Shown here: positions 5,571 to 58,198 of the stretch, piece by piece | Layout: the number at the start of each line of letters is the position of its first letter | Numbering within the stretch: the first letter of the stretch is position 1 | Origin: Polytrichum commune | Taxonomy: Eukaryota; Streptophyta; Polytrichopsida; Polytrichales; Polytrichaceae | NCBI GenBank assembly: GCA_950295325.1 | Contig: OX485808.1 | Location: forward strand, 36,846,527-36,910,526 | Direction: 5' to 3' | Length of the DNA stretch: 64,000 bases | Notes under the pieces: model-generated | The model's database searches: none | What the model saw: the letters and a program-made list of their open reading frames with translations, nothing else | What the model was told of the DNA's origin: nothing | Program-made: the position numbers and the translations under genes

Positions 5571-8409
5571 AGACTTATATTTCACCTTAAAACCCGATTT
5601 TCTTTTGAGAGCGAAGGAAAACATGGGAAAGCTCACAGGGTGCCCTCTCTTGTGAATCGAACATGCCGTTCCAAAAAGGGTGAACTTGGTGAGTTGATGG
5701 CTGACGCACAAGTATGGTGGCCTCATATCGTCGCTCATCTAGAACAGACATCTATATTTACGTTATACATAATAAGGCTAAAGTTTTGAAACAATCACTA
5801 CAAGGACATGGGTTATGCTGAGATTTGGACTATGTGCAAATGCAATTCATTTTATTGTATTTGGACTATGTGCAATAGGCCGCATACCTTATGCAGAGAA
5901 GCGATTCGGAGAACGGGTTAGCATCGCACTTCCGTAATTTTTTTTGACATGATTGAAGTACACATCTCTACTTAGTCCCTAGTTTTCACATAGAAATCTT
6001 TGATTGAACACACTTGAAATTTTATGGACGAACTCTCACATGTGTGGAAATGTAGGATATCTCTGTACACAAACTCAATCACTTTATATTACATAGAAGT
6101 GGCCATTTGTTAAATTGCATAGATGCAAGTCATGAAGCAGGTTGGCTAAGTTTTAGCTGAATTTGATTGCCATCCATGGTGTTCCATTCTAATGTCTTCT
6201 TTTCTGCGACATCTTTCAGGTGGACAAGTTTGAAATAGACAAGGTGCTTGTGAAGGATATTCAAACAAGGTGCCATTAAATACATCCAGGGTTACTTTTC
6301 TTTCTTGTAAGGTATTGCATGTTGGGGATGATCATTTACATGAAATCGTGGCCTTTGGTTGATGTAAGGTTTGGGATAATATTTGTAAATCAATGTTAGA
6401 CTCATTTGTGTATTGGGCTGAAAGAGTTTTGATGAAAGAGAATGTGATCTCAACAATAAAAGTAGTTGTAAGAGTATTCCATCTTGCACTTGGACATTAA
6501 GGATGATTGACCATGTTGGTGATGCCTTGCAAGGGGAAGCTGAAAATTCAGTGCAATAGTATGGTTATTCAAAAATGATTTATCTTGATTGTCGTTCCTA
6601 GTAACAAATGTTTAACACAAATTGGTGAAGTGAGTCATAGTTTATGTGGAGAGATTTGTTTATCTATTTCATCTTTTTGGCTTAGGAGAGTTGATGCCAT
6701 CATTTTCAGTGGAACCCATGAATTTGTTTCTAACCATGTCCAAGATTGGTCTTGTTATGAATAGGGATTGTAATGGCACTTTGGTTCATTGTGGATGAAA
6801 ATTGAAAAAGGGTGGTGTGTTAAAATCAAGTTTTACTTTTCCATTGAGTTGAGCACAAAAGGCCGCTATGGCAAAGTATGGTAGATTGCATGTGACAACA
6901 TCAAAGTATGCTAGAAAGCAAGGCCTGGTTAGTGAAGATCATTGAAATGACAAAATGAAAGTTGGACTAAAAATAAATTTGAAAAGATGGTTGTTTGTAT
7001 TGCAGTTTGAGGTCCACGGATGAGATGATACGAAGGATTAATAGACCACTTTGGAGAATTTAATCTTTCAAGTTTTGGAACTCTAAAGCTGCATTCAACA
7101 ACATAACCAAGAGTACACATAGGTGTTTGAAAGAGGCCATTATGCAAGAAAGAATTGAAGGTTCATCCCCCTTGACTTAGGTATTTACATCCCCACAACA
7201 TGTCTCACATGCTCAAAGAACTTGTAAAAGTTGCTTTAGTATTTTACAATTGCAGTTTTTGAAACTTCTCATTATGTTGTTGATGACCTTCAGTGTTTTG
7301 TTAAACAACCAATTGTTGATTCTTCCAGAGTTGTTTTGAATGGTTAAATAAAGGAATTTGATTTATTTGCTCTTTTTAGTTGTCAGTCACATTGTTGATA
7401 ACAAGGGTTATGCTCAGATTTTCTTGTTGGCTATGATTCTCAACGCGTTAGGGATAAGAGTGGGTTTGTGGTTGTGATGAACAGTGAATTCTTGTTGAAA
7501 TTTCACTTCAATTTCACCACCTGATAGGTTATATTGTTCTCATCTTTTGTCCCTCCAAACTTGAATTTGACAACATTTTGAGTAGTAATAATTTTATTGA
7601 GGCCATAGTAATTTGATGTGGATATTTAATTTTTTTGAAATTATTCACATACAAGAAACAAATCATTAGACTTTATAAATTTGAACTTGGAATTTTTATC
7701 TCTTATAATTGTGGTGAACAAAGAAATACTTTGATTTATGTGTCACACACAACTTTATGTGTCACACATAGCTTTATGTGCTTTCTTATATATGTTTTAG
7801 GTTTACAAGACATAGTCAGTAGATTTGAAAAATTCTCTACAAAGTTTGGATAGGCAAGGAACTTTATATCGTATCCACTTAGGAAGAGCTTATTTGCACC
7901 TCATGGTACTCCAACCGTATTGGGTGTGCACAATAAGTTGGTATTCGTTTCATGCTGGATGTCATATGAAGTCTATAGTAATTTAGTGATACATAAAGCA
8001 CCTAAATTTGCAAGGGATTAAGCATGTTATTCATCTTGGGCTCATTTTTATGTTGTAGACATCAAACTGTGACAATGCAATGTTATGTATTGTATATTGC
8101 GAACCCAAATTGTCAATAAATGCCATGTGATGAATCATAGTGAAATTCAAGGTTGACATTTTAGTTCAATGTACACTATCAAGTTATGTGCTAATTTAAG
8201 ATGTTGATATGCTAGGTGTGTTCCATATAAAGTATTGTTTGAAAACAACACAACAATGACACCAAGTGGGCATCAAACATAAAAAAAAGTCTAGCAATAT
8301 GTATACAAATTATGCCAAATGCTATTGTCTTTTCCTTTGTGTGATGTGGCATTGAATTTGTAGATGCAACGTGACTCTAATTCTTACCCTTTTTTTGTTC
8401 TACATGCAG
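5571..8409. other. No gene recognised; upstream region of the kinase-NLR gene
   Basis: About 2.8 kb of AT-rich sequence without a convincing coding region. The last ~20 bases (CCTTTTTTTGTTCTACATGCAG) form a good 3' splice site directly before the first coding ATG. A 5' UTR intron and an upstream non-coding exon are therefore likely somewhere here, but I could not place them. Confidence 0.4.
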
Positions 8410-8412
8410 GAT

Positions 8413-11400
8413 ATGATGGCTAATCAATCCAATATCTTGGGGCTTTGTATATTCAACACTGACTACATACAACAAATTGTGCATGAGGGGGGTGCCAAGT
8501 TTGCATTGAATCAACGCCAATGCACATGTCTTGCACAAACGCTCAAAAAATTCACCAGTACTATAGAAATTATTTTCTCCCATACAAATGAGTTTCTTAA
8601 CAATTGTGACTTGTTCTTGAAGGAGTTGTTTCTAGTTATTGAAAGGGCCAAGTTGTTGGTACAAGAGTGTTATGGTGAGAAATGGTGGCATGTAGCATTG
8701 CTCCAAATCCACAATGAAGAGGCATTCCAAGACTTGTTCATGAATCTCAAATCTTGTCATGATGATATTTATCGACATTTAAAAGGCCAATGTGTTGGAC
8801 AGTTGGACCAATTTCAAGATGATGTGAGTTTTTCACTAAGCACCATGAGTGAATTGGGAGTTGAAGATCATCTCGAATTGGTGAGGCGATTACAAGCAAG
8901 CGTAGAATCCACGCATTCATCCTCTAAGAACAAGGTCACTAGCAAAGAGTCAACGATTGCGGCATACTTGTTGAAAAGATATGACAATCAAGGTTACTAT
9001 GTGAATGGTGGACAACATGTGGAGGTTGATGCACGATTGGGTTGGCGAGGCTCAAGCCCACTTGGAGAAGGTGCGTGTGGCAATGTAGAGAAAACAACTT
9101 GGTTTGGTTTGCCGTGTGCAAAGAAGGTTCAAGTTTTGGGTGATATGGAAGATGGGGACAAAAGCTTCAAGAAAGAGGTAGGCATACTTGCAAGCGCCAA
9201 TCATCCAAATGTCGTGAAATTCATATGTTGTGGCCGAAAACCAGAGAAACGCAAATGTTTCATTGCTATGGAGCTTCTAGACACAAGCTTGGAGGCATTG
9301 ATGGAGGAGGTATCAAATGGCGGAACAAAAACACCCTTCCCAATTCAAGTAGCTATGGACATCATCTTACAAATCGCGAAGGGCATGAGTTATCTACATG
9401 GGAAGAAAATTGCACATCGGGATTTAAAACCTGCCAATGTGTTGGTGCATAAAATCATGGTGGACGAATTGCACAAGGACAACTATGTGAATGTGAAGTT
9501 GGCCGACTTTGGACTTTCAAAAACGGATGTGCATAGCAACATTTCTGAGAAATTAAGCCAAGGTATTGGGACGAGGTTGTATAAAGCACCTGAGCTATTC
9601 CACTACACCAACCAAAAGACAAAGAACACGATGTCTTTTGCAGTGGAAAAAGTGAATGCACATGAAGCCGATGTATACAGTTTTGGTGTGATGTGTGCAA
9701 CTATACTCTCAGGAAACCAACCATTTGAAGGCGATGGTCATGATCTTCCTACAAGGCTAAGGTCAGGTGAGAGGCCATGGGTGCCTGATGATTGTCCCCA
9801 AGCTTTGGTCTCCTTGATCAACGAATGTTGGTCATTAGAACGAACAAAGAGACCCAAGTTCAAGGAGATTTGCACAACATTAAAAGAATTGAGAAGTTCC
9901 ATTTTATGGGGAAATGTTGCACTTAGAAATCAAAAGGTGGAAAATGAGACAACCTTGTTTCAAAGGATTTCAAATTTGCCTCATGACGTTATATATTTGT
10001 GCAAACGCTTCTGGAGGACACCGAATTTGGAGGGGAGAGAAGCTAATGAGGCCCAACATACAAGTCAATTTCATACCAAGGTATTAATCCTACCAATATA
10101 TTAAATGGTTTAGAAATTAGTTCACATCAACTTTCAAATGGGCTAACAAATACAATCAATTTATCTTGTTGTATTCATTTTCATCAAATATTGGATCCAA
10201 ATACAAATTTGAAATCTTGTTAAAAGAGAAAGCGTATTCTTTTAAATGAGACAATCAAGGTACTTTGATAGCACTCATAGAAATCATACTCTTTTGCATT
10301 TATTGTAACTTATGTGTCAAAGCAATATCTAATATCAAATTTTGTATGTAAAGGGTTTTCAACTTTTTGCACCATTGTCATGGGCAAACCGAATACTTCC
10401 ATCACAAGTGCGGTCCACACATTCATTACCATCACTCCCGGTTCACTTTGTCAATATTGATAAGAAAATCTCAAACGTGTTATTTCAACTAGAATCCAAT
10501 CAAATTCTAGGCATCGTCGGGATGGGTGGAAGTGGAAAGACCACTTTGACAAAGGCCATTCTTCATCGTGTGCATGAAGGCTTTGAAGCAACAAGCTTTG
10601 TGGCAAATATGAGAGACTCCAAAAACATCTTGGATATACAAAGACAATTGTTGGAGGATCTAAACTACAAGAGGTACATAAACACCACAGAAGAAGGGTT
10701 CAAGGACTTACACGAGATATTTGAGAGGAAAAAAGTCTTTGTTGTCTTTGATGATGTTGCCTCTCAAGAACAACTCCATGGGCTAGTTTCATCTAAGTGG
10801 AAGTTTGCTAACGGTAGTAAGATCATTGCCACAAGCCGAAATTGGCAAGACTTAAAAACAACTTGTATCTCACACAATGGAAAGATGGACATGGAGTTAT
10901 TGGACGAAGATGAAGCAAAGGAGCTATTCTACAAGCATGCATTCTTACAACAACAATCTCAAGGGCCACAATTTGAAAAAGTTGCCAACAAAGTCATCGA
11001 AGCATGTGGTGGTCTGCCTTTGAGTTTGGAAGTATTGGGAAGTTATTTGTGCGGAGTTCAAAGGCTTAGGGTATGGCAACAAGCATTGCGAAGATTACAG
11101 AGGGGACAATGCCTTGGTGGTAGTTGGGACAACGAAAGGATATGGAGAACGTTGAGGATAAGCTACGATAATTTGGATGGAGAAGAGAAAAACATGTTTT
11201 TGGACATTGCTTGTTTTTTTTGTCGGGATGTTCTCAAGCAAGGGATGGAGGAAGAGAAGGCGTTAAAAATATGGGATTGTGATGATAGTAACGCACATTC
11301 TGCACTTTTGAATCTCATGGACCGAAGTCTTGTGCGAATGGATTTGGATGGGATGTTGACAATGCATGATCATTTACGTGACATGGGACGTATGATAGCA

Positions 11401-14397
11401 TGCAAAGAACATATTGGAGGACAAAGAATTTGGAATTTGGATGAGTTTGAGCCCACCAAATCTAATGCGAGCATGGTAAATGAATATATCCATCATCTTT
11501 GTCTAGTTTCATAATCATAAAGCGTCCAAATTTGATGAAATTGAGTTTGCACTTATAAGATTCTTTGTAGAAATAATATAAGGAAGTAAATGTATATGTT
11601 TGAAGTTTTTTTAATCAATTGAGATAATATGAAAAAATCCACACACTTAATGGATTGCCATAAACAATGATTTATAACATGGTTGATGCAGATGATGCAA
11701 AACGTGGAAGGTCTTCATGTGGCTGGATCTCATTGTAATTATGATATGATTACAAGTTTGGATATGACAAACATAAGGCTCTTGGATATCAACGATTGTG
11801 AGAGTTTGGATTACTTTTACAAAACAATGAAGAATGCGAATAAATTGAGGTGGATGCGGATAAACATGAGCTCAACCCTATATAGAGGAGAAAAAATTGA
11901 AGAGTTGCAACCATCATTTTTCATTCCATTCAAACAGTTGCGTGTGTTGGAGATGAAGAGCTTTGTGCACTTGCAACAATTTCCACTTGAAATTGGAACC
12001 CTTAAGATGTTACAATACCTTACCTTAGTTGATTGTAACGCATTGGAATTCATACCAGAGACATTGGGCAACTTGACTTCCTTGGTGACATTGGATTTGG
12101 GTGGTTGCTCGAGCTTGAGGGAAGTACCGGAGACATTGGGCAACTTGACTTCATTGGTGACATTGGACTTGGATGGTTGCTCGAGCTTGAAGGAAGTATC
12201 GGAGACATTGGGCAACTTGACTTCATTGGTGACATTGGACTTTAGTCATTGCTCGAGCTTGAAGGAAGTTCCGGAGACATTGGGCAACTTGACTTCATTG
12301 GTGACATTGGACTTTAGTCATTGCTCGAGCTTGAAGGAAGTTCCGGAGACATTGGGCAACTTGACTTCATTGGTGACATGCAACTTGTTTGGTTGCTCGA
12401 GCTTGAGGGAAGTACCTAAGACATTGGGCAACTTGACTTCATTGGTGACATTGAATTTGGATGGTTGCTCGAGCTTGAAGGAAGTACCTGAGACATTGGG
12501 CAACTTGACTTCATTGGTGACATTGGCCTTGTGTGCTTGCTCGAGCTTGAAGGAAGTACCGGAGACATTGGGAAACTTGACTTCATTGGTGACATTGCAC
12601 TTGAGTGGTTGCTCGAGCTTGAGGGATGTACCGGAGACATTGGGCAACTTGACTTCATTGGTGACATTGAAATTGTGTGGTTGCTCGAGCTTGGAGGAAT
12701 TACCGAAGACATTGGGCAACTTGACTTCATTGGTGACATTGGACTTGGGATATTGCTCGAGCTTGAGGGAAGTACCAGAGACATTGGGCAACATGACTTC
12801 ATTGGTGACATTGGACTTGGATGATTGCTCGAGCTTGAAGGAAATACCTGAGACATTGGGCAACTTGTCTTCATTGGTGACATTGGACTTGTGTGGTTGC
12901 TCGAGCTTGAGGGAAGTACCGGAGACATTGGGCAACTTGACTTCATTGGTGTTATTGGACTTGGATGACTGCTCGAGCTTGAAGGAAGTACCTGAGACAT
13001 TAGGCAACTTGACTGCATTGGTGACATTGGCCTTGGATGGTTGCTCGAGCTTGAAGGAAGTACCTGAGACATTGGGCAACTTGACTTCATTGGTGACATT
13101 GAAATTGAGGGGTTGCTCGAGCTTGGAGGAATTACCGAAGACATTGGGCAACTTGACTTCATTGGTGACATTGGACTTGTATGGTTGCTCGAGCTTGGAG
13201 AAATTACCGGAGACATTGGGCAACTTGAGTTCATTGGTGACATTGGAATTGTATGATTGCTCGAGCTTAAACGAAATACCTGAGACAATGTGCAACTTGA
13301 ATTCATTGGTGACATTGTCGATGAGTGGTTGCTCGAGCTTGAAGGAATTACCGGAGACATTGGGCAACTTGACTTCATTGGTGACATTGGACTTGTATGG
13401 TTGCTCAAGCTTGAAGGAAGTACCGGAGACATTGGGCAACTTGATTTCATTGGTGACATTGTACTTGAGTGGTAGCTCGAGCTTGAGGGAAGTACCGGAG
13501 ACATTGGGCAACTTGACTTCATTGATGACATTGGACTTGCGATGGTGCACGAGCTTGAAGAAGGTACCGGAGACATTGGGCAACTTGACTTCATTGGTGA
13601 GAATGGGCTTGGGTGGTTGCTTGAGCTTGACGGAAGTGCCGGAGACATTGGGCAACTTCACTTCATTGGTGACGTTGGACTTGAGTGGTTTCTCGAGCTT
13701 GAAGGAATTACCGAAGTCATTGGGTAACTTGACTTCATTGGTGAGATTGCACTTGAGTGGTTGCTCGAGGTTGAAGGAAGTACCACAGACATTGAGCAAC
13801 TTGACTTCATTGGTGACATTGAAATTGAATGGTTGCTCGAGCTTGGAGGAATTACCGAAGACATTGGGCAACTTGACTTCATTGGTGACATTGGACTTGT
13901 GTGGTTGCTTGAGCTTGAGGGAAGTACCGGACACATTGGGCAACTTGACTTCATTGGTAACATTGAAATTGAATGGTTGCTCGAGCTTGGAGGAATTACC
14001 GAAGACATTGGGGAACTTGACTTCATTGGTGACATTGAAATTGAGTGGTTGCTCGAGCTTGGAGGAATTACCGAAGACATTGGGCAACTTGAATTCATTG
14101 GTGACATTGAAGTTGAGTGGTTGCTCGAGCTTGAAGGAATTATCGGAGACATTTGGCAACTTGACTTCATTGGTGACATTGAAATTGAGTGGTTGCTCGA
14201 GCTTAAGGGAAGTATCGGAGACATTGGGCAACTTGACTTCATTGGTGACATTGGACTTTAGTTATTGCTCGAGCTTGAAGGAAGTTCCGGAGACATTGGG
14301 CAACTTGACTTCATTGGTGACATTGGACTTGCGATGGTGCACGAGCTTGAAGAAGGTACCGGAGACATTGGGCAACTTGACTTCATTGGTGATATAA
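8413..14397 (+). CDS. Kinase-NB-ARC-LRR immune receptor (PNL-class NLR), three coding exons
   Basis: Proposed exons are 8413-10080, 10354-11475 and 11692-14397, all phase 0 (AAG|GT, ATG|GT; acceptors AAAG| and GCAG|), giving about 1831 aa. Residues 1-190 are helical and WW-containing, resembling the DUF1221/HeLo region of plant MLKL-like proteins. A kinase domain (about 210-520) keeps GEGACGNV (218), Lys237, HRDLKPAN (335), DFG (365) and APE, so it should be catalytic. NB-ARC has GMGGSGKTT (~612), VVFDDV (~686), GLPL (~776), TNL-like FLDIACFF and MHD (~893). The LRR part has about 33 units of 24 residues with a CSSLKEVPETLGNLTSLVTL-type consensus. By family it should be a cytoplasmic immune receptor. 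The first ATG follows a strong acceptor; an upstream ATG at 8371 would add 14 aa. The stop lies inside the LRR array, so the protein may be shortened. Confidence 0.85.
10081..10353 (+). other. Intron 1 of the kinase-NLR gene
   Basis: The donor follows CATACCAAG at 10080 (GTATTA). The acceptor ends ...TTTTGTATGTAAAG at 10353. Reading phase 0 is kept on both sides, and the kinase frame closes shortly after the donor (at about 10104). The AAAG acceptor is weaker than usual, so the exact 3' boundary is less certain than the donor. Confidence 0.65.
11476..11691 (+). other. Intron 2 of the kinase-NLR gene
   Basis: Donor GTAAAT follows ...GCGAGCATG at 11475. The acceptor TTGATGCAG ends at 11691. 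Both flanking exons are phase 0. The intron separates the NB-ARC/ARC2 region from the LRR exon, and the MHD motif lies about 110 bp before the donor. Confidence 0.75.
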
Positions 14398-15990
14398 GAC
14401 TTGAGTGGTTGCTCGAGCTTAAGGGAAGTATCGGAGACATTGGGCAACTTGACTTCATTGGTGACATTGGACTTTAGTCATTGCTCGAGCTTGAAGGAAG
14501 TTCCGGAGACATTGGGCAACTTGACTTCATTGGTGACATTGGACTTGCGATGGTGCACGAGCTTGAAGAAGGTACCGGAGACATTGGGCAACTTGACTTC
14601 ATTGGTGATATAAGACTTGAGTGGTTGCTCGAGCTTGAAGGAAGTACCAGAGACATTGGGCAACTTCACTTCATTGGTGGCATTGTACTTGAGTGGTTGC
14701 TTGAGCTTGGAGGAATTACCGAAGACATTGGGCAACCTAACTTCATTGGTGATATAAGACTTGAGTGGTTGCTCGAGCTTAAGGGAAGTATCGGAGACAT
14801 TGGGCAACTTGACTTCATTGGTGACATTGGACTTTAGTCATTGCTCGAGCTTGAAGGAAGTTCCGGAGACATTGGGCAACTTGACTTCATTGGTGACATT
14901 GGACTTGCGATGGTGCACGAGCTTGAAGAAGGTACCGGAGACATTGGGCAACTTGACTTCATTGGTGATATAAGACTTGAGTGGTTGCTCGAGCTTGAAG
15001 GAAGTACCAGAGACATTGGGCAACTTCACTTCATTGGTGGCATTGTACTTGAGTGGTTGCTTGAGCTTGGAGGAATTACCGAAGACATTGGGCAACCTAA
15101 CTTCATTGGTGACATTGGACTTGTATGGTTGCTCGAGCTTGGAGAAATTACTGGAGACATTGGGCAACTTGAGTTCATTGGTGACATTGGACTTGTATGG
15201 TTGCTCGAGCTTGGAGAAATTACTGGAGACATTGGGCAACTTGAGTTCATTGGTGACATTGGACTTGTATGATTGCTCGTGCTTGAGGGAAGTACCGGAG
15301 ACATTGGCAACTTGACTTTATTGGTGACATTGAAAGTGAGTGGTTGCTCGAGCTTGAAGGAAGTACCGGAGACATTTGGCAACTCGATTTCATTGGTGAC
15401 ATTGTACTTGAGTGGTTGCTTGAGCTTGAAGGAATTACCGGAGACATTGGGCAACTTGACTTCATTGGTTACATTGATCTTGGGATGGTGCACGGGCTTA
15501 AAGGAAGTACCAGATATCTTGGGCAACTTGACTTCATTGTTTACATTGAAAGTGAGTGATTACTCAAAATTGAAAGAAGTACGGGAGACATTGGGCAACT
15601 TTACTTCATTGGTGACATTAGTCTTGAGTGGTTGTTTGAACTTGATGGAAGCCCCGGAGACATTGGGCAACTTGATTTTATTGAGAACATTTCACTTGGG
15701 CGGTTGCTCGAGCTTGATGCAAGTACCAGAGATTTTGGGCAACTTGTCTTCATTGGATACATTGAGCTTGGGTCGTTGCTCGAGCTTGGAGAAATTACCG
15801 GAGATATTGGGCAACTTGACTTCATTGGTGACGTTGCACTTGGATGGTTGCCGGAGCTTGATGGAAGTACGGGAGATATTGGGCAACTTGACTTCATTGG
15901 TGACATTTTACTTCAATGGTTGCTCAAGCTTGAAGGATTTTACCGGAGTCATTGGGCAACTTGATTTCATTGGTGACATTGCACTTGGTG
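12043..15990 (+). repeat. 72-bp tandem array encoding 24-residue LRRs (about 54 units)
   Basis: The array has an exact 72-bp period marked by ACATTGGGCAACTTGACTTC in nearly every unit. About 33 units are in the open LRR exon and about 21 more lie downstream of its stop. Some neighbours are identical (12241-12312 with 12313-12384; 15121-15192 with 15193-15264). A 360-bp block at 14401-14760 is repeated at 14761-15120, differing only in its last 12 bases. The variable positions are mostly those just after LVTL, the surface-exposed beta-strand residues. This pattern indicates recent unequal exchange within the array. Confidence 0.95.
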
Positions 15991-16019
15991 GTTTATTTTG
16001 TGCTATTTTTGTCCTATAA
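14398..16019 (+). pseudogene. Decayed 3' part of the LRR array
   Basis: The same reading frame continues beyond the stop at 14395-14397 but is cut again by stops ending at 14613, 14757 and 14973. Each stop is the same change, GTGATATAA in place of GTGACATTG. Near 15306 one G is missing from ACATTGGGCAAC, which shifts the frame. After that an LRR frame (NLTLLVTLKVSGCSSLKEV onward) runs to 16019. The last units are the most diverged and end in a non-LRR tail. This was probably coding in an ancestral, longer receptor. A spliced or alternative transcript that uses it cannot be excluded. Confidence 0.8.
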
Positions 16020-30455: not shown

Positions 30456-33400
30456 ATGGCCAAGATTTTGCAATTCGTTCGCATGATTTGGGATTTCATA
30501 AGTATTTGGTTCGTAAAGTTTAGAACATATGTACGAAAAGTACAAAAACAAAGCAATGAGGTTGGAGATATTTTGAAGTGGCAAAGGGAGGAAGTAACCA
30601 AACTTCGAGAGGTTCTCAAGACGGAGCAAGTGTTAAATGAGAAACAATGCATAAATCTTGTCGATAAGCTTGACCAAGTTGTGCTTTATGTGAATGAGAT
30701 GATCACATCCACTAAGGAGATGACTAATAAATTTGGGCTTTTGCTTGGGGAGTTACATCGCATTACTCAAAAAGTAAGAGAATTGGTCCAAGATTGTGGG
30801 AAGCAAGAATGGTGGCATGCAGCAGTATTCCAAATAAACAATACGGAGACCTTTCGAAAACTTGTGGATGATTTGCATTGTCTTTGGGACGCAATGTGCG
30901 AAAAGTATTTGGATATCTTACCAGTATCGCAATTTAGAATCCCATGTATTGATTTTAGTGTGGCCACTTGTGACGAAATTGAAAGTGATGACAAAGCCTT
31001 GGTGGAAAGGCTTACGAAACGACTTGAAATGATGCCCAATGATTTTGAGGACCATATATTGGAAAAACATTTATTGAGGAGATTGCAATTTGGATTGCCC
31101 CAAGTGAAAGGTGCAATATTGGATGCCTTGGAAATTCCAAAGGATGTCATAAAACCAAAACTTTATCGAAGAATAGCATGTACATCATCCGGGGAGGTGC
31201 ACATATCAAGTTGGTTGGGAATTCAAAGTGCAACAAAAATGTTGAGGTCCCCCCGTCACAGAGAGGCTCACATCTTAGCATGCTTGGGCCATCCAAACTT
31301 CGTCAAATTCATTTGTTTTGGAAGATTCGAAGAAACTCATGAGGGAAATCTGGATGGAACGGACAATGTCTCAAGAAATGTTTTTCTAGTAATGGAGCTC
31401 ATGGAGACGAGCTTGAGCAATTTCTTGAGAAAGCGGAAGATGCGTTTACCGTATCTTGTTGCCATTGATATGATGCATGAAATCGCAAAGGGCATGTGTT
31501 ATCTTCATGACATGCATGTTGCCCATCTTGATTTAAAACCAGCTAAGGTGCTTCTAAGCTCCATGCCAAGACTTGCAGGAGTCAAAGAATATAGTGGTTG
31601 TGATTTTGTCAAATTGACAGTTTCTGAATGTTCCAAAACGGAGGTTGAAAACAAACCGGTATTACAAATGTATACTACTGGTACACCACAGTACAGGGCA
31701 CCTGAGATGAATAGGAAATATTCAAATTCAAATAATATGGTATGTCTTTTTCAAGCAGATGTATGGTCATTTGCTATGACATGTTCAGAGATCCTTTCTT
31801 TGAAGGAACCGTTTCCAGACACCTCCATATTCATGATCATGCATAAAATAAAAGATTGTTGGAGGCCTAAGCTACCTATCAACTGTGAGGAGCTTACCAC
31901 GTTGATTGAAGAATGTTGGATTGAGGATCCTTCACAAAGGCCAACATTTTCGAACATTTGTGAGAGGCTCGCAACCTTGAAGAAGAAGTTCATGGTAGGA
32001 GTATATTCAAATGATATACCACAGTTTGACAAAGGTGGGACTTCTTCCTCAAGCACCCAACTGAAGAAGGTCTCTAACCAGATGAATATCTCTGTTTCCA
32101 AGAAGGTAAGAACACATTCCATTACAATATCCGTATTGTGTATTTTGAGATGTCTTTTTTTAGTTTTTATAATTACTTTTGGAGTTGAAGACATGATAAT
32201 TGAACCACAACATAGGATTTGGTGCAAGCATGGTCAACTGGACCAATAGATAGGTCATGTATGCTGAAATCACAAATATCTTGGTCAAAGGCTATAAAGT
32301 AGCACCAAACAATCTTCCTAGTAGATTTTGGCTATATGTAGACCTTTATATAATTGTTACAAATATTCAAATTTACAATATCAAAATGCTATCTTCAAAA
32401 TTTATCATCAAAAATATGTCCACAAACTAATGACCACATTGGATTCTAGGAGCAAAATTCATGACCTTACATGTGATTGTGACTGTTCAAATATATAATT
32501 TGAGTAAGTAGGTAACTTTGTTTTGGGCATATATTGAATCTAATTGCTAAAAGGTGCTATTGCACAAAATGGTGAGAGGCTTAAAGTCTTTATTTCGAAA
32601 TTCTTTTTTTTACCAAGTCTAGGATTTGCCAAATTGTGAAGTTTGTTAGTCTTTTCAGCAATTGAACATGCTTGGATCCGCTGTGTTTAGTGATTAGTTT
32701 TCATGAATTAGGGGAGTTTCTCAAAAATGATTTGGTCATGGAACTTTTGGAAGGGATGTCACTGTTGGGGTGGCTAGTATGCAGATGCTTTCGTTGGATG
32801 ACAACAAGACTTCTTAATTACTATGATTCGCAGGAATTTTGAGTCATAATCACTATGTATGCTAGTCTTGAGTTTAATGTCCGCCATGTGTGGTTCCCTT
32901 GTGGGGTAGGACTTGCGTTTGTAATCATCTACGTGAGATGGGCCCTATTGTAGGCACTTCACACTCGTCCACATACAATTTTAGTTGTTTGATTGGATCC
33001 TGAACTGTCTCAACTAGTTGGTTACCAAATGCAAGCCACAAAGATTTTCAATTCGAGTACTGTTCTCCCTCTTTAGTATGGCACGTTTCGGAAACACAAA
33101 AAAGTCGTACTATTGAGGTGTCGTCTTCTCATTAATATGACAAATGGCGTAAAGTTGTTGTATTATTATTGAGGGAATACAAAAATATAAGTAAAATGGG
33201 CTTAAAATATATACAACGAGTTTAAGCAATATAGATGGTATGAAATAATAACTTATAACTCCAACCAAATACAAAAAAATTCAAGAACTCTTGAAATAGG
33301 AGTCCAAAGATCTTTGGTGTTGCCTACCCAAGTTAGCAACTGTCATCTTATCTAAATTCCCTACTAACTTTTGAAAACTAATCACTTCATTAACACCAAA

Positions 33401-36104
33401 ATATAAAGGGTTCTCTAATAAGAAACTAGACAACAATGATGCATGACGTTTAGCCATAACCACTCTAACCCTAATCATGTCCATTCTACATTGTAACCCT
33501 AATTCTCATTAAGTTTCCTATGATAAGTGAAGTTCCCACGTAGTTTCCAAATGAAAATGGATGTATTTTAGATGTACATAACATAGATGAAAGGAAATTT
33601 AACATTAACTACCTCTTCAATATGGCAAAACGGAGATTTTAAATGTCGCACTTATTGAGTGTCGTAATCGTATAAAATAGGGAGTTTTTGAACTAAAAAG
33701 TTTGGTCTCGCAAAAATGTGTCGTAATATCGAGGGTGTCGTATAAACAAGTGTAGTATTAACGAGGTTAGATTGTAGTCAAGATACAAAAGTCATATGAG
33801 GTCACAGTAGAGATTCTCATTTAAGTGATCACACAAACCCTCCAATCGTGTACACTATTGAACCTAGAATGGTGCATACGTTTGAAGGACATCGTCCAAT
33901 ATTCTCATTGTGACACATGATGTCTTTCTGGTCTTTGTTCTCCACTACAAGCTCTTGTCATATATCGGTTGAGTTAATGTGTGTCTGGTGAAGAACAATG
34001 ACCACATAAGGCCCACATACCTTAGTAGTACTTTGGAGCTCTACCAAATTAGAACTGATCTTTAAGGCAGCTCAGTCTCAAAGCTGTCGATTTGTCGGGA
34101 GAGAGACCCCTAGGTAGAGGAGCGGCTGATCATGTATAAGATTTTATCTGAGCGATTTAACTGCATGAAGGATCGGCACTCAGCTCCAACGAAACCCCCA
34201 AAATTTGTTATTCAGATGACTTACTGTTTTGACATGCTTGTGAGTATGCATGATTTGGGAACGAGCTAGACCAAATCCTTTGTTGACATTCTCTCGTTGT
34301 TTTCTATGCACAGGCTTTGGAAGCTGCTGGCAATTTGATCAAGCCCGGAAATACAGAGTCTCCGACCAGTTCGAAGGAAAGTTTAGATCGAGCACAACAC
34401 GATCCTATGGAGTCTTGGGAAAAACTCAAGAAAGCTAGGGGAGGAAGTGACCGTAGTACGCTCACAATGCCAAGAACATGGCAGCCCCCAAAGATGGTGT
34501 GGGAACAATTCTTGGCACTTCTTGGTGTGGGAACAATTCTCCTTCTTTGGTTAGCTTATTTCATCGGTGGCCACGAGCCCTCGTTTATACTTTACCTGTT
34601 CATCACACTGTTCAGCGCACTGTTTACGGTAAAGCTATGCCTACATTATCCAGAGCCAATAGGAGAGGGATCTTCGTTAGACTCTCTTTTGTCGCTGGGA
34701 CATGTGATCATGGCATCATCATGGGACATTGTACCCTTTGTGCTGATTGCTGCCTTGGTGTGCATTGAGGCGCCACCCTCTTTTACCTTTTTCCTTTTAA
34801 CCTCCACTATACTCGGAGTGGTGCTCGTTTTGGAGATGAGAAGAAGCGTGCACTTACGCTTGTTATGGTACAATACTACGGGCAAATCATTGAGGCCATG
34901 CAACATGTTGAAGGCCCAGTATTACTCACAGAATCTCCGTGGAGCTTTGTTCATATCCAAAGATGCTCCAGATGGATGTTGGTCATACCATCCTGATTTT
35001 TCTTTGACTGGGCAGAGGCGTGAGAATGATAAGGATCTCGAGGATGAATTTGAGGTGTCTGGATACACATATAAATGTAGATATGAATATCCCACGAGCT
35101 TTATTGAAGTGACCATGCGGGGCAAGTTAATCAAGTCAATGAAGACTCCCCTTGAACGTGAGGTTCATGACATGTTCATCAGATTGATTCGTAGGTGGAA
35201 ACGCAAGGCTGAGGATGGTGTCTTTTATGGCATGCAAATAGTTTGGGGAGTCAATGTGACCCATTGCTTGGACGTCGAGGAACTTTACAAGCTTCTAGTG
35301 GAAGGCCACCTACCTGTCCGGTATGTCAACGGCCCTTATACGAAGGCTTTGGTGATGGGCGAAAGAGAGATACTTGACAATATCATCAAGGTTATCACAA
35401 CAATCATAGGTTCTTTTGGTGTAATGTATGTCAATTATGGAGGTCATGTGGTCATCAATGGGATGGCATTCATAATTCTCCTCATAGCAGGAGGTATGCA
35501 TATTCGGAACCTTCACTCATCCACTTATATGGACGTTGAGTCAAAGATATTTTCATACAAATACTTGCGTTTGTTCAAACTCTGGGAATACCGGGGACAG
35601 GTGCTATGCCCCTACAGGTATTGTATGGAGGTCATGGGTCATCCCGTGCATGTAAAAAGTGGCGAATACTACGCGGAACTTACGAGTGATCCCGATTCCA
35701 ACTCAATGCCTGCATTCGAAAGTGTGTCTTGGTTTCGGGTTGAAATAGGCAAATGCTTTTGCTCAGTCACACGGACTCCGGAGGGTTTTGTTTCATTTAT
35801 TATATTTTCCAAGGTACACAATTGTACACGTCAATACAACAGCTACGGCATGTCCGAAACATGCCAACAGCAGTTTACAACGTTACTAACTCATTGGGGA
35901 GAGGGGAGGATTTCCTTCGTCTCGTCAGAAGCAATAAAGGGGGGCCAACAGAGTGCTCATTGTACATCACTCCTGGACATTTTCTTGTGGTTCATTGATG
36001 ACCCTGATCGTTCCCTGGATGAAATCTCTCATTGTCATGCCTACAGATTTCGTAAATTGGTATATGGTTTCGAAAATGGATTATGGCTAGTTCATGGTGG
36101 GTAG
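30456..36104 (+). CDS. MLKL-like N-terminus + pseudokinase + polytopic membrane domain, two coding exons
   Basis: Proposed exons are 30456-32105 and 34314-36104, joined in phase 0 (AAGAAG|GTAAGA; TTTTCTATGCACAG|), giving about 1146 aa. The N-terminus (about 1-190) parallels that of the 8.4-kb kinase-NLR: EWWHAAVFQINN against KWWHVALLQIHN. The kinase fold keeps the beta-3 Lys (SATKML) and alpha-C Glu, but the glycine loop is lost, HRDLKPAN is HLDLKPAK (~357) and DFG is SEC (~390), so it should not catalyse phosphotransfer. Exon 2 adds hydrophobic helices near 616-636, 641-660, 689-724, 906-926 and 930-948, with a charged region between and a long soluble C-terminus of no family I recognise. 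The ATG at 30456 has a strong context (ATCATGG); an in-frame ATG at 30414 is the alternative. Exons hidden in the 2.2-kb intron cannot be excluded. Confidence 0.7.
32106..34313 (+). other. Proposed intron joining the pseudokinase and membrane exons
   Basis: The donor is AAGAAG|GTAAGA at 32106 and the acceptor TTTTCTATGCACAG| ends at 34313, after a pyrimidine-rich tract. The pseudokinase frame closes at 32249 if unspliced. The 34.3-kb frame has no ATG at its start, opening directly after the acceptor, which supports splicing. The interior is AT-rich with no recognised exon. Bases 33060-33780 hold short GTCGTA-type repeats. Confidence 0.6.
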
Positions 36105-39100
36105 TCTCATCTCGGACGGCTTCCCATCCAGTTTCTACATCAGGAGCTCGCGTGGCATGTGGTGGGAAAAGTTCACCGTTGGGGATCTTGCGGATAGGGG
36201 CTCTAGCAGATCGACCCCATTGAATCAGTTCTGGACCCGGCTAAGTTCCACTTGTCACCTGCTAACTTTGGTACGATAGTAACCATCGTAACTTTTGGTA
36301 GCCATTAGGTAGTCAATAAGCAGCCATTGGGTAGTTATTTCTATGTTATGGGTATACATTTTGGTGGCAAGATGACCACAACGTGTCTTTTTGAAGCACA
36401 CTTGTTGTAGGACGGGATTAGTCACCGAGGAGGATAGCAATTACCATAAAACACAATGCATTTGAAACTTTAGACATTGCCATCATCCACCTCCCTCCTC
36501 TTTATTGTTGTTATTATTCCTCCATTCTCTCTTGTCCTTGCAACACATGGTCTTGGTGCTCTTGGTCGTGTTGGTCAATGTGTTGGTGTTTTTTGACATA
36601 GTGTTAGTTGTGTTGGTCATCTTCAAGGTAACTTCTCTTCTTCCTTTATAGTTTGTGTTTGTTTGGTTTTTTGTATTTGATTTTGGAGGTCAAATATGTG
36701 TTGATGCTAAAAATGTGGATTTTGGTTATTTTGGAGGTATACAAGGTCAAGTGTGTGCCGATGTTGAATGTTCGATACATATTATGAAGTCCAAGTACTA
36801 TGTTTTTGTGGGTAATAGTTTTTTGAAGGTGTATGAGGTCAAATGTATGCTAATGTCCAATTATTGATGCATATTTTGAAGCCCCATTTTTTTTAAAAAA
36901 ATTGGAATAAAATTTAATAAAATATTTTTTTCCATTTTTTTTTCAATTCTCTATGGATTGGCTTTGCTATGTTTTTGAAAGTTTGGTTTCTTGAAGGTGT
37001 AGATATCAAATGTGTATTAATGTTGAATGTTTGATGCATATTTTGAAGTATACGTTTTATATTTCCAGAGGTTTTTTGAAGGCTAACATAGTTAAATCAT
37101 TTCAGGGGCATTAATGCAAATGAAGCAATGAAAGCCCAATCTTGCACATTAAAGGTTGTCACTTTAAAACGGTCTAATTGAAATCGTATTTCTTTTGAAT
37201 TTTGCAATTTATGTATTAACTAACCACTAATAATCATCATGTATCACCCAACAACAACCAAGAATACCAAATCAGCCACTCAATCACCCAACAATACCCT
37301 ACACCATTACTCCCACCAATACCCAACCCAAAAACTACCAAACACCAACCCGGTGGCACCCATGATCCACTTAACATCCCACCAAGTAACACCCAAAACC
37401 CACCCACTCCTTACCAGTAGCACCCAACATCCACCAAACAATACCTAGTATACTTAAGCTTTATAAACTTGAACCAACGCCCATGATGAGGTGGAGAGGT
37501 GCACTCCAAATTCAATACATTCACCCTTCATCTGTGTATTTGGCATTTCATATGCATCACCCACAATGAAGACACTCACCCTCACATCACTCCATGTCAC
37601 TAGAACATTGAACACCACCGTAACACCTACCCTTTGACTTGGTTATCTAGACTATACCCGGTATTGCACAAACTAGCTACAGGTGACAATTTCCACTACA
37701 ATTTCAACTACCCTACAAGGTTCTTTTGGACATGATATCCTTCAGTATGAGGTGGTAAGACCACATTTATGAGATCTACCTGTGTTTATTTGGAACAATG
37801 TGACAACATTGTTATTATGTATTTCCCAAAATGGATTAAATGAATACATTTTTGTAAATAATTTATTATTACATAATTTCAATATATTTTGGTCTGCTTA
37901 AAAAATGACTAGAGTTATAAATTATTCCAACAAGCACACTCATGTGTAGGTTAGAGGTTAGTGGGGGCTATGGAGATAGGGTACTTGCACTTGGGAGTTC
38001 TTTGGCTTTGAACCTTCAAACTAACAAGGTAAGTAGGTCATGTGACCATTTAATGGTTGTTCTATCAATTTAGAGTTGTTTGGACGTAAACATTAGAAAG
38101 GCAACACCGGAGTACTAAACAAACACACACACACACACCCCCACCCACATGTTAGCTTTACATATGCATGAGTTTTATCTACAAAAAGAAAAGGATATTT
38201 GGAAGCTTAGAAAGCTTCTCTACTGTACCTCACAAAGCCCCCTACAGGGATGTACATGAACACTTTTGGTATCCATTATTACTTGTAAAAATTGCACTAA
38301 GTATACTAAAACCATAAATGATTTGGTCAAATGCCTAAAAGTAGTAGCAAAGTGTTGTTGAAATTGGAGTTTTTTTTCTTTGCGGCCTTTATTGTTGTGT
38401 TAGCTACTTAAATATAGAATATCAAGACAAGATCTTCAAAACTTATCATTCAAAGTACAGCGCGCTCAAAAGGTAAGGGCTAAATATGGTTTTGGACGTA
38501 AATTTCATGACCTTAAATATTTTGAAGTTGGGATTTTTTTCAAAATCCTTGAATTCATTATAAAGTTAAGGGCACCATTACAAAATTTTGTAAGAAAACA
38601 TCAATTTGATGTAATTTTATCATATTCTAAACAAATTCTAGAGAACTACATGTTCAATATACCTACTTGCACACTACTTGCACCGTCTTCTAAAATATGT
38701 AGACTTTTCTTGAAAAAAGAGTTGTCAACATAACTTGCTTGGCTTGTAGATCAATGTCTTTTTCAAATGTTTGTGATGTTTTGTTCACAAAATTCAAAGT
38801 TAATACATAGTTTTGAATCACTTTCACTTAGACCTATGCAGGGTGATAAAATTGTGTACTTGACCATGCTTGCGCCTAACATTATTTTCACCACTGCAGT
38901 GGTCAAATGATGGTGGGTATGGCTGTGGAGTTGGAAGTGCCCATAAGTGGGCTAGATACCTTAAGGTGGAGGATGCTAAAACCAACACCCCACCCAAAAG
39001 CAACACCTATAAACACCTCCCAATTACCACCACTCTACTACTTTGAACCACTCTATCTTTGGAGTTTTCTCGGCTCCAAACAAATTAAGCCTAGTATGTT

Positions 39101-54933: not shown

Positions 54934-56482
54934 ATGGACTTCCAGGGGCACCCGCGAGACCCTCCTACCGGCAACTTGAATGCCGCCACAGGCAACACCT
55001 TGAATGTGGGTGGGAATGACTTCCGTGCAGTGCGGCCTGGAATTCCTCAAATTCCATTTTTCCAAGGATTTCCGCCTATGGGGAGTCAAATGCCATATTT
55101 GTTTCCCCATCCCTTCCTTCCTACATCTTCAGGCGCGGCGTACACCTCTCCCACCCACGGCATTCCTAACGCGCCCATTGACCTTACGGAAGACACTCAA
55201 AAACGCGCATCACAAGAGTGCGTCACCGAGCAATCCAAACCAACCAAGAGACGGAGAGGCAAGGCCAAGAAATCGGAAATTGTTGACCTGGACGCTGTGA
55301 AAGAGGATGCCGAACTCTTGAAGTCTGCAGGTCATTGGAAGGACCATTGGGTGATACAACTCATCACCATCCGCGGTGAGATGCAAAATATCTTCAGCGC
55401 TCCACCAAAGCAAGGTATCCGTCTTCCTTCTCTCGTATTTTCTTGTCATTTTTGTATGATTTTTTTTTTGAAATTCGCAGCCTGCATGAATTGGCCACCT
55501 CGCATACAAAAAAGATTGCTGGAATTCGCAACAATGTGTGAATTCGCGGGCTGCAATGAATTCACAGTCTGCTGAAAATTTTTGTGTGCTGGAATTTCCT
55601 GAAGCTGCAGACTGCTGGAATTCGCAGTCTGCTGTAATTTTCGGTCTGCTGGAATTTCCTGATATCTGCAGACTGCTGGAATTTTTTTTCTTCTGGAATT
55701 TCCTGAAATCTGCAGACTGCTGGAATTCGCAGTCTGCTGGAATTTTTTGTATGCTGGAATTTCCTGAAGTCTGCAGACTGCTGGAATTCGCAGTCTGCTG
55801 GAATTTTTTGTATGCTGGAGCAGTCTGAAATCTGCAGACTGGTGGAAATTTTTGTATGCTGGAATTCTATGCCTGCTGAAATCTGCTGAAATCTGCTGTA
55901 ATCTACTGCTGAAATCTGCTGAAATTTGATTGAATTATCGTGTTTGTAGAACAAAAGTTTTCATTTCAATTTGCTTACATTTGAAATTCATGTGCAGGTG
56001 TGGACAATTGGTCCCTACTCCACACGAAACTTGTTTCGTTATGCCCGGATTTTACAAAAGATAGCGAGGCATGTAGGAAGAAATGGAGTGCAATTTACGG
56101 CGATTACAAGGAGGACAAAGCAATGAATTTGAAATCCGGGTCTCAGAGATCGGAGAAGTGTAGGTGGTATCAACTCGTTGACGAATTTATGTTTGACCGT
56201 GCGCATGTGGTTGCACATGCGCATGCGAGTGCCGCGAACCCCGATGGACCCAAGTGCGCGACAACTTCGGACACGCAAACCACGGAGCAACGGAGTGGCG
56301 AAAGCACGTTGAAGTCACCCGATCCGAAACGCAAGGATGACATCTTCTTGGAGCGGTGTATTGGCGAGATAAGAGATAGTAGTAGGACACTTATGGAAAG
56401 CATGAAAACTAGTGAGGAAATGAAAATGGCTTCATTGTTGAGCATGCAACAAACAATGCTCAAGTTGGTAGAGAAGTTGTAG
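54934..56482 (+). CDS. Harbinger ORF1: Myb/SANT-like (trihelix-type) DNA-binding protein, two exons
   Basis: Proposed coding exons are 54934-55414 and 55998-56482 (CAAG|GTATCC; TGTGCAG|), joined in phase 1, for about 321 aa. The ATG has a strong context (GCCATGG) and lies just after a likely acceptor (GTGCTCCAG). The N-terminal ~75 residues are Pro/Gly/Phe-rich; then comes a basic patch KRRRGKAKK. The Myb/SANT-like domain (about 115-205) has WKDHWVIQLI, CRKKWSAIYGDYKE and KCRWYQL, and the intron cuts it after its first helix. A predicted coiled/helical end follows (SLLSMQQTMLKLVEKL). In PIF/Harbinger elements this protein binds subterminal DNA and helps the transposase enter the nucleus and act. 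The frame appears intact. Confidence 0.8.
55560..55925. repeat. Tandem repeat inside the Harbinger ORF1 intron
   Basis: About six imperfect units built on CTGCTGGAATT(C/T), GCAGTCTGCTGGAATTTT, TGTATGCTGGAATTTCCTGA and ATCTGCAGACTG, with a basic period near 60 bp. A related short piece (CAGTCTGCTGGAATTTTCAG) occurs near the right end of the transposon at about 58005. Confidence 0.85.
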
Positions 56483-56495
56483 GTACATGTAGAAA

Positions 56496-57901
56496 TCAGT
56501 CAGTATCCATTGTGAAAGTTTGTGCAATGGTTGCTTTTGTTTTTGCCATCCAAAGGCTCTTTGCTATTCCATTTCTACGTGCACATAGCTCCTTGTATGT
56601 TTTCCCACCGGTGCCCATTGCAATTTGAAATTCCTTTGCAGCTTCTTGCTTGTCGTATTCCAAGGATTCCCTGCTATTGTTGTCAATTGCAGCTAGGCTG
56701 TGCAATGCGTGGTTGGCCACCGCCAATCTCTCCTGCCTATTTGTACCTGGAATATGTGCAACCGACATGCCGTTGTGTACCTCACATGTAGCCTCTTGCA
56801 TCCATTCGGTCTTCCAGAAATTGTCTCCGAATATGATGCACATGTTGTGTAGTAGTAGGCACACCGTTACCAATTCAGGCACACTTTTTAAATGAACGTC
56901 CATCCTCTTTAGAAGAATTCTCCACCTCCCCTTAAGCATACCGAATGCTCGTTCAACGCACATGCGCGTTGAACTTTGAACGAAATTCCAATGGTACTCC
57001 TCCCGTGAGAGCCCATCCTTATGGCCCTTGTAGGGTGCCAACATCCAGGGTCTGCACGGGTAAGCAGCGTCGCCAACAAGAGCGTACGGCAATAGGCTCC
57101 CAGCCTCGCAGTACTTGCCGATGTCCGACCTAGCCCATAGGTTGGCGTCGTGCATTGACCCTGCCCAACCTATGTCGTAATCCCAAAAGAGACACTTGCT
57201 AGAAACAACACCTTGAAGAAGTATGGAATGAAATCCTTTACGATTATAGTAGTCAGCAGCATGTAGCCGGGGAGCAATGATGGGTTGTGGGACCCATCAA
57301 CGGCCCCCACCACATACGGAATTTGGTGTAAGTTTTGAAATTCTTGGGCGAATTTCTCCATGACTGCTGAAGAAGGCCACCTAATGAATTTCTTGAGCAA
57401 TACCGATTTCATAGCACCGCAAAATTGAGATACAACTGCTTGACTGCTAGAGAGCCCAATCCTATACAAATCCGCTATGCTTTGCATGGAATTACCTGTG
57501 GCCAGCCGCGATATGGATACGGCAACTTTGACTTGAACCGGAATGGCTAACCGCATTGCCGTATCCTGCCTTTGTAACAACGGAGCGAGAGTGCTACACA
57601 AATACTCAAAAGTCGAGACATACATCCGCATTCTACCCTTGAACTCCCGCGCATTAAAGGACCCCAACAAATTTTGATCAAAGAAACCTGGTTCATGTAG
57701 ACCTCTTTCGTGTGCCCACAATCTTCGTGGTTGCCTCCCCCGAAGCCGCACAAAACCCTGGAACGCCATTGTCATACAACAAAGTTGTTGCCAATGCCAC
57801 ACGGCAATCGCAGCTTCATTGCTTGATATGGTCTCCAAAGTGATGAACAAAGTGATTTGGAATGCAAGACACACAAGGAGCCTTTGTACTTCGGGCTCCA
57901 T
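56496..57901 (-). pseudogene. Harbinger DDE transposase, disrupted by a one-base frameshift
   Basis: The minus-strand frame starts at ATG 57901 (MEPEVQ). It runs through an HTH-like N-terminal half (KVAVSISRLATGNSMQSIAD, SSSQAVVSQF) to the first catalytic Asp in VVGAVDGSHNP. Near 57280-57290 one base is missing, and the following residues (IIAPRLHAADYYNRKGFH...) are in the next frame. The downstream frame (57272 to 56496) keeps the second Asp (VGDAAYPC) and the Glu (CVERAFGMLKGRW), plus the LLHNMCI signature. Total size would be about 468 aa, normal for this family. All three DDE residues survive, so the frameshift is probably recent, or a sequencing error. Confidence 0.88.
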
Positions 57902-58198
57902 ATTCACAAACACAAATACAAGTCTTTAAGCTACCTTCAAATCTAGCCCTGTTCGGTAAGCAGAGTGCCCTGTTTCTGTGAGTGAGTGCCCTGGTTCGAA
58001 GTGAGCAGTCTGCTGGAATTTTCAGAGTCTACTGGCCGAAAGTCAGCAGTTTCGGTGAAGTTACATGTGGCTCAGTGCCGGCTGGGCAGAGCCGCCGGTG
58101 TGGTGGCTGCCACTGCCCTCATCCTCCGTGGCCACCCTACTTGCTGTCTAACCCTAGCCCGGACGACCTGCCTGCCTGCCGGTAGTCTGGCAAGGCCC

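Follow-up and report, generated by a model that had tools for sequence, protein, structure and literature searches.

A candidate chimeric gene in the moss Polytrichum commune joining an NLR-derived pseudokinase exon to an orphan membrane module

We describe a locus of the moss Polytrichum commune at which the first exon of an immune receptor gene of the NLR type (nucleotide-binding, leucine-rich repeat) is followed, on the same strand and in the same phase, by an exon that encodes an orphan membrane protein. The locus lies in a stretch of 64,000 nucleotides (C6:36846527-36910526), here called the window, in a genome of 408 Mb and 64 contigs; positions are those of the window unless another contig or locus is named. 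The reading we favour, with confidence only slightly above even, is that exon 1 is spliced to exon 2 and that the locus is a chimeric NLR-derived gene, formed by phase-0 exon shuffling with a new membrane module.

Structure of the locus

The frame of exon 1 runs from an ATG at 30456 to the donor AAG/GTAAGA at 32105/32106 with no stop between. Exon 2 begins at 34314, behind the acceptor TGCACAG/, and is open throughout to its stop at 36102-36104. Both lengths are multiples of three, so that the presumed intron is in phase 0 and the joined frame comprises 1146 aa and a stop. An initial reading of the same DNA (the first-pass annotation) had given these exon coordinates, open frames, common phase, a clean donor and an acceptor, and all of them were confirmed. 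When scored with a generic splice profile, which yields only rough ranks, the exon 1 donor is the top-scoring GT within 30456-32300 and the acceptor at 34314 ranks second of 131 AGs. The parts of the locus, all on the + strand, are as follows.

30456..32105, +: exon 1, 550 aa; helical N-terminus and kinase domain; N-terminal exon of the PK-NB-ARC-LRR (PNL/Pkn-NLR) type
30456..31163, +: N-terminal region (residues 1-236); weak RPW8/MLKL_N-like matches in some family members
31164..31973, +: kinase domain (residues 237-506), predicted pseudokinase; glycine loop, catalytic-loop Asn and DFG Asp lost
32106..34313, +: presumed phase-0 intron; homology to PNL paralogues up to about 32472, then dispersed repeats
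34209..37423, +: segment common to the window and chromosome C5; carries exon 2 and its 3' flank
34216..34239, +: possible mini-exon of 24 nt, ATG..., phase 0; weak donor; candidate own start or extra in-frame exon
34314..36104, +: exon 2, orphan polytopic membrane module; 596 aa and stop
34509..34838, +: membrane block 1, with four hydrophobic helices here against two in the C5 copy; 198-nt length difference between the copies
34854..35363, +: conserved soluble block (exon 2 residues 181-350); dN/dS (ratio of nonsynonymous to synonymous rates) 0.39 between the copies
35361..35507, +: second membrane block (exon 2 residues 350-398); one or two hydrophobic helices
35508..36101, +: C-terminal soluble block of exon 2; residues 346-596 have dN/dS 1.46 between the copies

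Origin of exon 1

Exon 1 is the N-terminal exon of a moss PK-NB-ARC-LRR receptor (PK, protein kinase) without its NB-ARC and LRR. It matches the Pfam kinase model at E 3.7e-29 and has at least 75 matches in its own genome among the best candidates scored; after removal of two partial pieces, 73 PK-exon places are left, the window among them. NB-ARC follows downstream on the same strand in 71 of the 73, within 0.9 kb in 70 places and at 3.8 kb in one. With 8 kb scanned, the window is one of the two exceptions; the other is a truncated copy at C3:28954076. Because the genome-wide NB-ARC search listed best candidates, the window was also checked directly: between 16101 and 64000 there is no NB-ARC or TIR similarity, and the only LRR match, which lies on the other strand, is at chance level (E 0.08).

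In the five paralogues that were read further (L011-L015), the homologue of exon 1 is followed by an NB-ARC-like exon of about 350 aa, and this in turn by an LRR exon; in L012, for example, Pfam finds NB-ARC (5.2e-33), WHD_ROQ1 (2.5e-13) and LRR_14 (1.1e-76). The position of the donor is kept in all eight aligned paralogues, as GTAAGAACACATTC in seven of them and as GTAAGTCCACATTC in L012. Exon 1 of the window is 69-74% identical to its nearest relatives, the group A copies, which lead into NB-ARC, and its DNA can be aligned with PNL paralogues as far as about 32472, a point within the intron. The PNL class was described from Physcomitrella, with introns between PK and NBS, and between NBS and LRR in PNL and TNL genes (TNL, TIR-NB-ARC-LRR), in phase 0 in the species surveyed (PMC3352924), and was later named Pkn-NLR (PMC11218826). 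The exon 1 locus has the homologous kinase exon of this class, the phase-0 intron after it, and relatives in both dispersed and clustered copies (PMC3352924, PMC11218826). It differs in that NB-ARC and the C-terminal LRR are absent, the catalytic residues of the kinase are lost and a membrane exon lies downstream instead.

Two further observations concern the dispersal of this family. Four PNL copies (L005-L008, on C6, C6, C7 and C5) share about 95-96% identity across most or all of the 4.8 kb compared, which points to recent dispersal of a longer unit. At L036 (C3:28947500-28956200), the locus of the truncated copy on C3 named above, the PNL kinase exon runs past the usual donor into other sequence, with no NB-ARC match within 8 kb.

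Exon 2 as an orphan membrane module

At a hydropathy threshold of 1.6, exon 2 of the window contains five helices, of which four cluster near residues 66-175 and the fifth spans 373-391. A sixth helix (about 350-371) exceeds the threshold only in the copy on chromosome C5, and it also appears as a helix in the poor AlphaFold model. The five or six helices announced by the first-pass annotation were thus found in this divided form, but its single large soluble tail turned out to be two blocks, one of about 175 aa between the membrane blocks and one of about 200 aa at the end. Structure prediction, which it had proposed as a check, was run on both exons and gave poor models (mean pLDDT 32.6 for exon 1 and 38.1 for exon 2). 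Neither Pfam nor NCBIfam yields a match to exon 2 up to E 5, the C2 domain included; the best PDB match has E 0.069 over 52 residues, and no relative was confirmed in bacterial/archaeal, viral and phage collections, which contain no plants. An internal duplication of two transmembrane helices plus a soluble part was considered and rejected, its score being reached by 280 of 500 shuffles for the window copy and by 38 of 500 for the C5 copy.

In the genome exon 2 was found at two places, the window and C5:27092335-27093933. Two separate pieces of its protein lead to the same two places, all other matches having E 1.5 or worse; assembly gaps could hide more. Comparison of the two copies over 524 codons gives 112.5 nonsynonymous and 25.5 synonymous differences (dN 0.098, dS 0.078). 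The 138 differences include no stop (P 0.001 by neutral simulation), and all seven indels are multiples of three, against one of seven in the flanks (p 0.005). Exon 2 is therefore protein-coding and has been held in frame since the copies parted.

Its parts have evolved at different pace, residues 181-350 under constraint and residues 346-596 not: the nonsynonymous rates of the two differ strongly (p 7e-09), while the synonymous rates agree (p 0.82). Nonsynonymous change in exon 2 also exceeds the change in the 3' flank (9% vs 4%, p 2.5e-07). We suggest that a part of exon 2 is fast-changing, possibly under diversifying selection. Since synonymous change is above that of the flank as well (p 0.015), a locally higher mutation rate or conversion may be involved. 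Positive selection over the whole exon was rejected, as the excess of dN over dS is not significant (p 0.33).

The second copy behind a TIR-NB-ARC gene

On chromosome C5, exon 2 lies downstream of a TIR exon (6.2e-26) and an NB-ARC exon (8.1e-35). The segment shared with the window aligns in BLAST pieces of 89-92% identity, with noncoding flanks at 96%. The C5 gene is in turn related to a TNL on chromosome C2, with 90% identity over L010:4875-7236 and 81% over L010:7240-7532. This homology ends at L010:7532, inside the intron between NB-ARC and LRR, and the shared segment begins at L010:7531. The TNL on chromosome C2 has an LRR-like exon downstream, which matches the LRR exon of the PNL gene present elsewhere in the window at 5.2e-30; at C5 neither LRR nor NB-ARC nor TIR is matched in the 9.3 kb past the shared segment, and resumption of the LRR was thus not found.

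The C5 donor after NB-ARC (AAG/GTAC) is common to the gene on chromosome C2 and is in phase 0. Consequently the two loci share one arrangement: exon 2, in phase 0, directly behind a conserved phase-0 NLR donor, with both breakpoints in introns. Upstream of exon 2 the two loci have only about 105 bp in common, and the segment thus brought no evident promoter to both. A mobile element with terminal repeats was considered as the carrier of exon 2, but the aligned segment ends showed, by eye, neither a terminal repeat nor a target duplication. At C5, exon 2 stands behind TNL exons with no LRR match after it, and these exons may be spliced to it. A membrane exon that is always a separate gene had been named beforehand as an argument against the fusion. 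As far as the gene order tells, this is not the situation in this genome, where TIR and NB-ARC exons precede the sole other copy found.

Loss of catalytic residues in the kinase

The kinase of the window has the glycine loop IACTSSGEV, HLDLKPAK with Lys in place of the catalytic-loop Asn, and SEC at the position of DFG; the beta-3 Lys (SATK) and the alpha-C Glu are kept. These changes and retentions had all been noticed in the first-pass annotation and are borne out residue by residue. To these it had added a change of the HRD Arg. Leu is indeed present at this position, but it is also found in 41 of the 42 other copies compared, and it is therefore a state of the family and not a sign of decay of the window copy. 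The comparison covers 43 copies, namely the window and 42 of the 72 other places. Of the 42, 41 keep the catalytic-loop Asn and 40 the DFG-position Asp; the beta-3 Lys and alpha-C Glu are present in all.

Among the 43 copies, the joint loss of glycine loop, catalytic-loop Asn and DFG Asp occurs in the window only. On these residues its kinase is predicted to be a pseudokinase. In L043 the catalytic-loop Asn, the DFG Asp and the catalytic Asp are lost and the glycine loop is kept. The DFG Asp is lost in both L043 and L040 (NFD, NYG), and pseudokinases may therefore have arisen more than once in moss PNLs.

One gene, two genes or debris

Several observations weigh against a single spliced gene. 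The top-scoring acceptor of the presumed intron is not that of exon 2 but one at 32834, the use of which would bring a stop at the third codon. With a length of 2.2 kb, the intron also contains dispersed repeats: one at 32941-33057 and 33779-34028, probably a single element, is split by a second at 33058-33778. At the two loci the same phase would be met by chance in one case of nine. The C5 NB-ARC exon has undergone an in-frame loss, late in the exon, of some 60-65 aa that its relatives have, so the C5 gene may be broken and no functional receptor. In which of the two lineages exon 2 was constrained does not follow from its intact frame, and one lineage alone (69 changes) would stay free of stops with P 0.047. 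Moreover, the first 58 codons of exon 2 contain 8 nonsynonymous and 0 synonymous differences, with no sign of constraint there.

The second of the repeats just named, about 0.72 kb long, is itself dispersed, with at least 40 other matches at 81-89% identity, and probably inserted into the first; no inverted repeat of 12 or more was found in 32900-33900.

The alternative that survives best, though we consider it rather unlikely, is that two genes are neighbours here: a truncated PNL exon, which stops at 32249 or splices to a short end, and a separate gene for an orphan membrane protein, which starts at the ATG at 34216 or inside exon 2 and a copy of which landed in a TNL intron by chance. The shared segment begins about 8 bp before CAG/ATGACT..., where a mini-exon of 24 nt, sharing phase 0 with exon 2, would open with ATG and end at the donor GTGAGTATG; such a start at the very beginning of the segment permits a gene of its own. 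Further in-frame ATGs occur at exon 2 residues 32, 52 and 61, and the intron measures 2.2 kb, against less than 0.9 kb between the PK and NB-ARC matched stretches at 70 of 73 places. Yet the donor of the mini-exon has no AG before its GT and scores 2.55 on the rough profile, compared with 6.49 for the donor of exon 1; the upstream part common to both loci is too short to have evidently brought a promoter; and a conserved phase-0 NLR donor directly precedes both exon 2 copies.

A less probable alternative is that the locus is NLR debris, in which exon 1 is a decaying receptor fragment, exon 2 is a passenger and the pair gives no working protein. Besides the missing NB-ARC and LRR, the lost catalytic residues, the repeats within the presumed intron and the plainly truncated PK copy at C3:28954076, the rate of change of exon 1 fits this view. 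At 250 columns otherwise invariant among the 21 closest copies (group A), the window has 29 private changes, and the 20 others have 0-8; in the wider family of 39 copies it departs at 5 of 110 invariant columns, the others at 0-3. The 29 changes are distributed as 21 of 137 columns in the kinase and 8 of 104 in the N-terminal region (p 0.08). By three-point distances, dN/dS on the window branch is 0.64, against 0.27-0.49 in six other copies, which fits decay as well. Split by region, the ratio amounts to 0.62 for the kinase (others 0.23-0.60) and to 0.66 for the N-terminal region, the latter unexceptional because it falls within the range of the others (0.31-0.66).

On the other hand, 0.64 is below 1, the 550 codons of exon 1 contain neither stop nor frameshift, and exon 2 kept its frame through 7 indels. 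Over about 205 branch changes, a number estimated from three-point rates, some 8 stops would be expected in exon 1 under neutrality, and none of 2000 simulations stayed open. It follows that exon 1 has changed, but was not a free-running pseudogene for most of its branch. Decay confined to the last part of the branch is conceivable, as 10% of simulations stay open with 50 neutral changes.

Finally, a true plant MLKL (HeLo domain and pseudokinase) with an added membrane module is very improbable: although the PDB sequences closest to exon 1 are 6lba (7.2e-26), an MLKL protein (PMC10881975), and 6ka4 (9.7e-20), and a few relatives match helical models weakly, the exon 1 family leads into NB-ARC almost throughout, the window copy is close to such members, and most paralogues keep their catalytic residues. 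Among 23 family members, RPW8 is matched in four (best 5.1e-05), DUF1221 in three (best 0.014) and MLKL_N in one (0.037), and in the window copy none of the three. The link of the exon 1 N-terminus to four-helix bundles is thus weak. The proposal of the first-pass annotation holds in so far as an N-terminal exon of immune type, whose kinase is degraded, shares its phase with a polytopic membrane exon; this N-terminal exon, however, is a PNL first exon and not an MLKL gene with a membrane tail.

Comparison with known systems

The statement that no described family has this order was too strong. In wheat Pm4 a kinase is fused to C2 and transmembrane regions, and its two splice forms are both needed for resistance (PMC12830362). 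Like the predicted fusion in the window, Pm4 is an immune gene that combines a kinase with a polytopic membrane region (PMC12830362, PMC10951266); unlike it, Pm4 has demonstrated kinase activity and C2, transmembrane and PRT-C domains, whereas exon 2 has no C2 match and the kinase of the window is predicted to be dead. Pm4 may be taken as the closest functional analogue, a likeness without demonstrated common descent.

Other systems resemble the locus in part. Kinase fusion proteins are defined by the fusion of one apparently functional kinase domain to another domain (PMC10951266); the only kinase of the window is without key residues, and its fusion is predicted from the open frame and splice sites. 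Plant MLKL proteins (AtMLKL; Pm13; PMC10951266) also combine a helical N-terminus with a kinase or pseudokinase, and 6lba is the nearest solved structure by sequence, but exon 1 descends from NLRs, and DUF1221/MLKL_N are matched weakly or not at all. NLRs with integrated domains, reported in Pkn-NLRs too (PMC11218826), likewise have captured foreign domains; in the window the foreign exon, an orphan membrane protein, replaces the sensor half rather than being added. Tandem-kinase resistance proteins with a transmembrane domain share a kinase and a membrane part, but have two kinases, and the descriptions at hand mention no NLR-derived exon. The types of part are known; the joining of an orphan membrane exon to the N-terminal exon of an NLR, and the reuse of this membrane exon in a second NLR class, did not turn up among the listed titles and opening lines of abstracts on Pkn-NLRs, on integrated or transmembrane domains in NLRs and on kinase fusions.

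Possible function and formation of the chimera

If the locus is one chimeric gene, phase-0 exon shuffling would have produced NLR-derived chimeras that carry a membrane module, and splicing of exon 1 to exon 2 would yield a membrane-tethered protein. The N-terminal region could still be its signalling or cell-death part, and the dead kinase might act as a switch or bait. The membrane module would anchor the protein and, as its fastest-changing part, might be the surface exposed to pathogen molecules. The mode of action of such a chimera would be that of a kinase fusion protein, or of an NLR with an integrated domain, and not that of an NB-ARC switch. Signalling by the exon 1 family is plausible, because in N. 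benthamiana a cell-death response, modest and variable, was obtained with the kinase of a moss Pkn-NLR (PMC11218826).

A broader proposal, which we put forward as speculative and on the whole doubtful, is that exon 2 is a portable module captured at least twice through phase-0 introns, in a PNL after the kinase exon and in a TNL after NB-ARC, each time in place of the LRR sensor. The executor halves of NLRs would thereby become membrane-anchored immune proteins without a classical sensor, and the second half of exon 2 would diversify as a surface facing pathogen molecules.

Bryophyte NLRs are little characterised. Should the chimeras be expressed, NLR genes of two receptor classes would be seen to exchange their sensor half for the same membrane protein through intron-phase exon shuffling. 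They would also offer a direct test of whether a moss kinase-type N-terminal exon signals when tethered to the membrane, and a membrane module without known relatives would join the parts list of plant immunity.

Other features of the window

About 14 kb upstream of exon 1, at 8356-16019 on the + strand, lies a PNL gene that has a kinase exon with intact HRD and DFG, an NB-ARC exon and an LRR exon; its N-terminus matches RPW8 (5.7e-05) and MLKL_N (0.04). A frame of 647 aa on the - strand (12318-14261) is antisense to the LRR exon of this gene, and its repetitive translation suggests that it arises from the LRR repeats and is not a gene. Neither an Rfam nor a tRNA scan found a match in the window. 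At 55985-57925 there are remains of a transposase, which we take to be of the PIF/Harbinger type: a DDE_Tnp_4 nuclease on the - strand (1.5e-32) and an adjoining + strand frame with a sub-threshold Myb/SANT-like match (0.0044).

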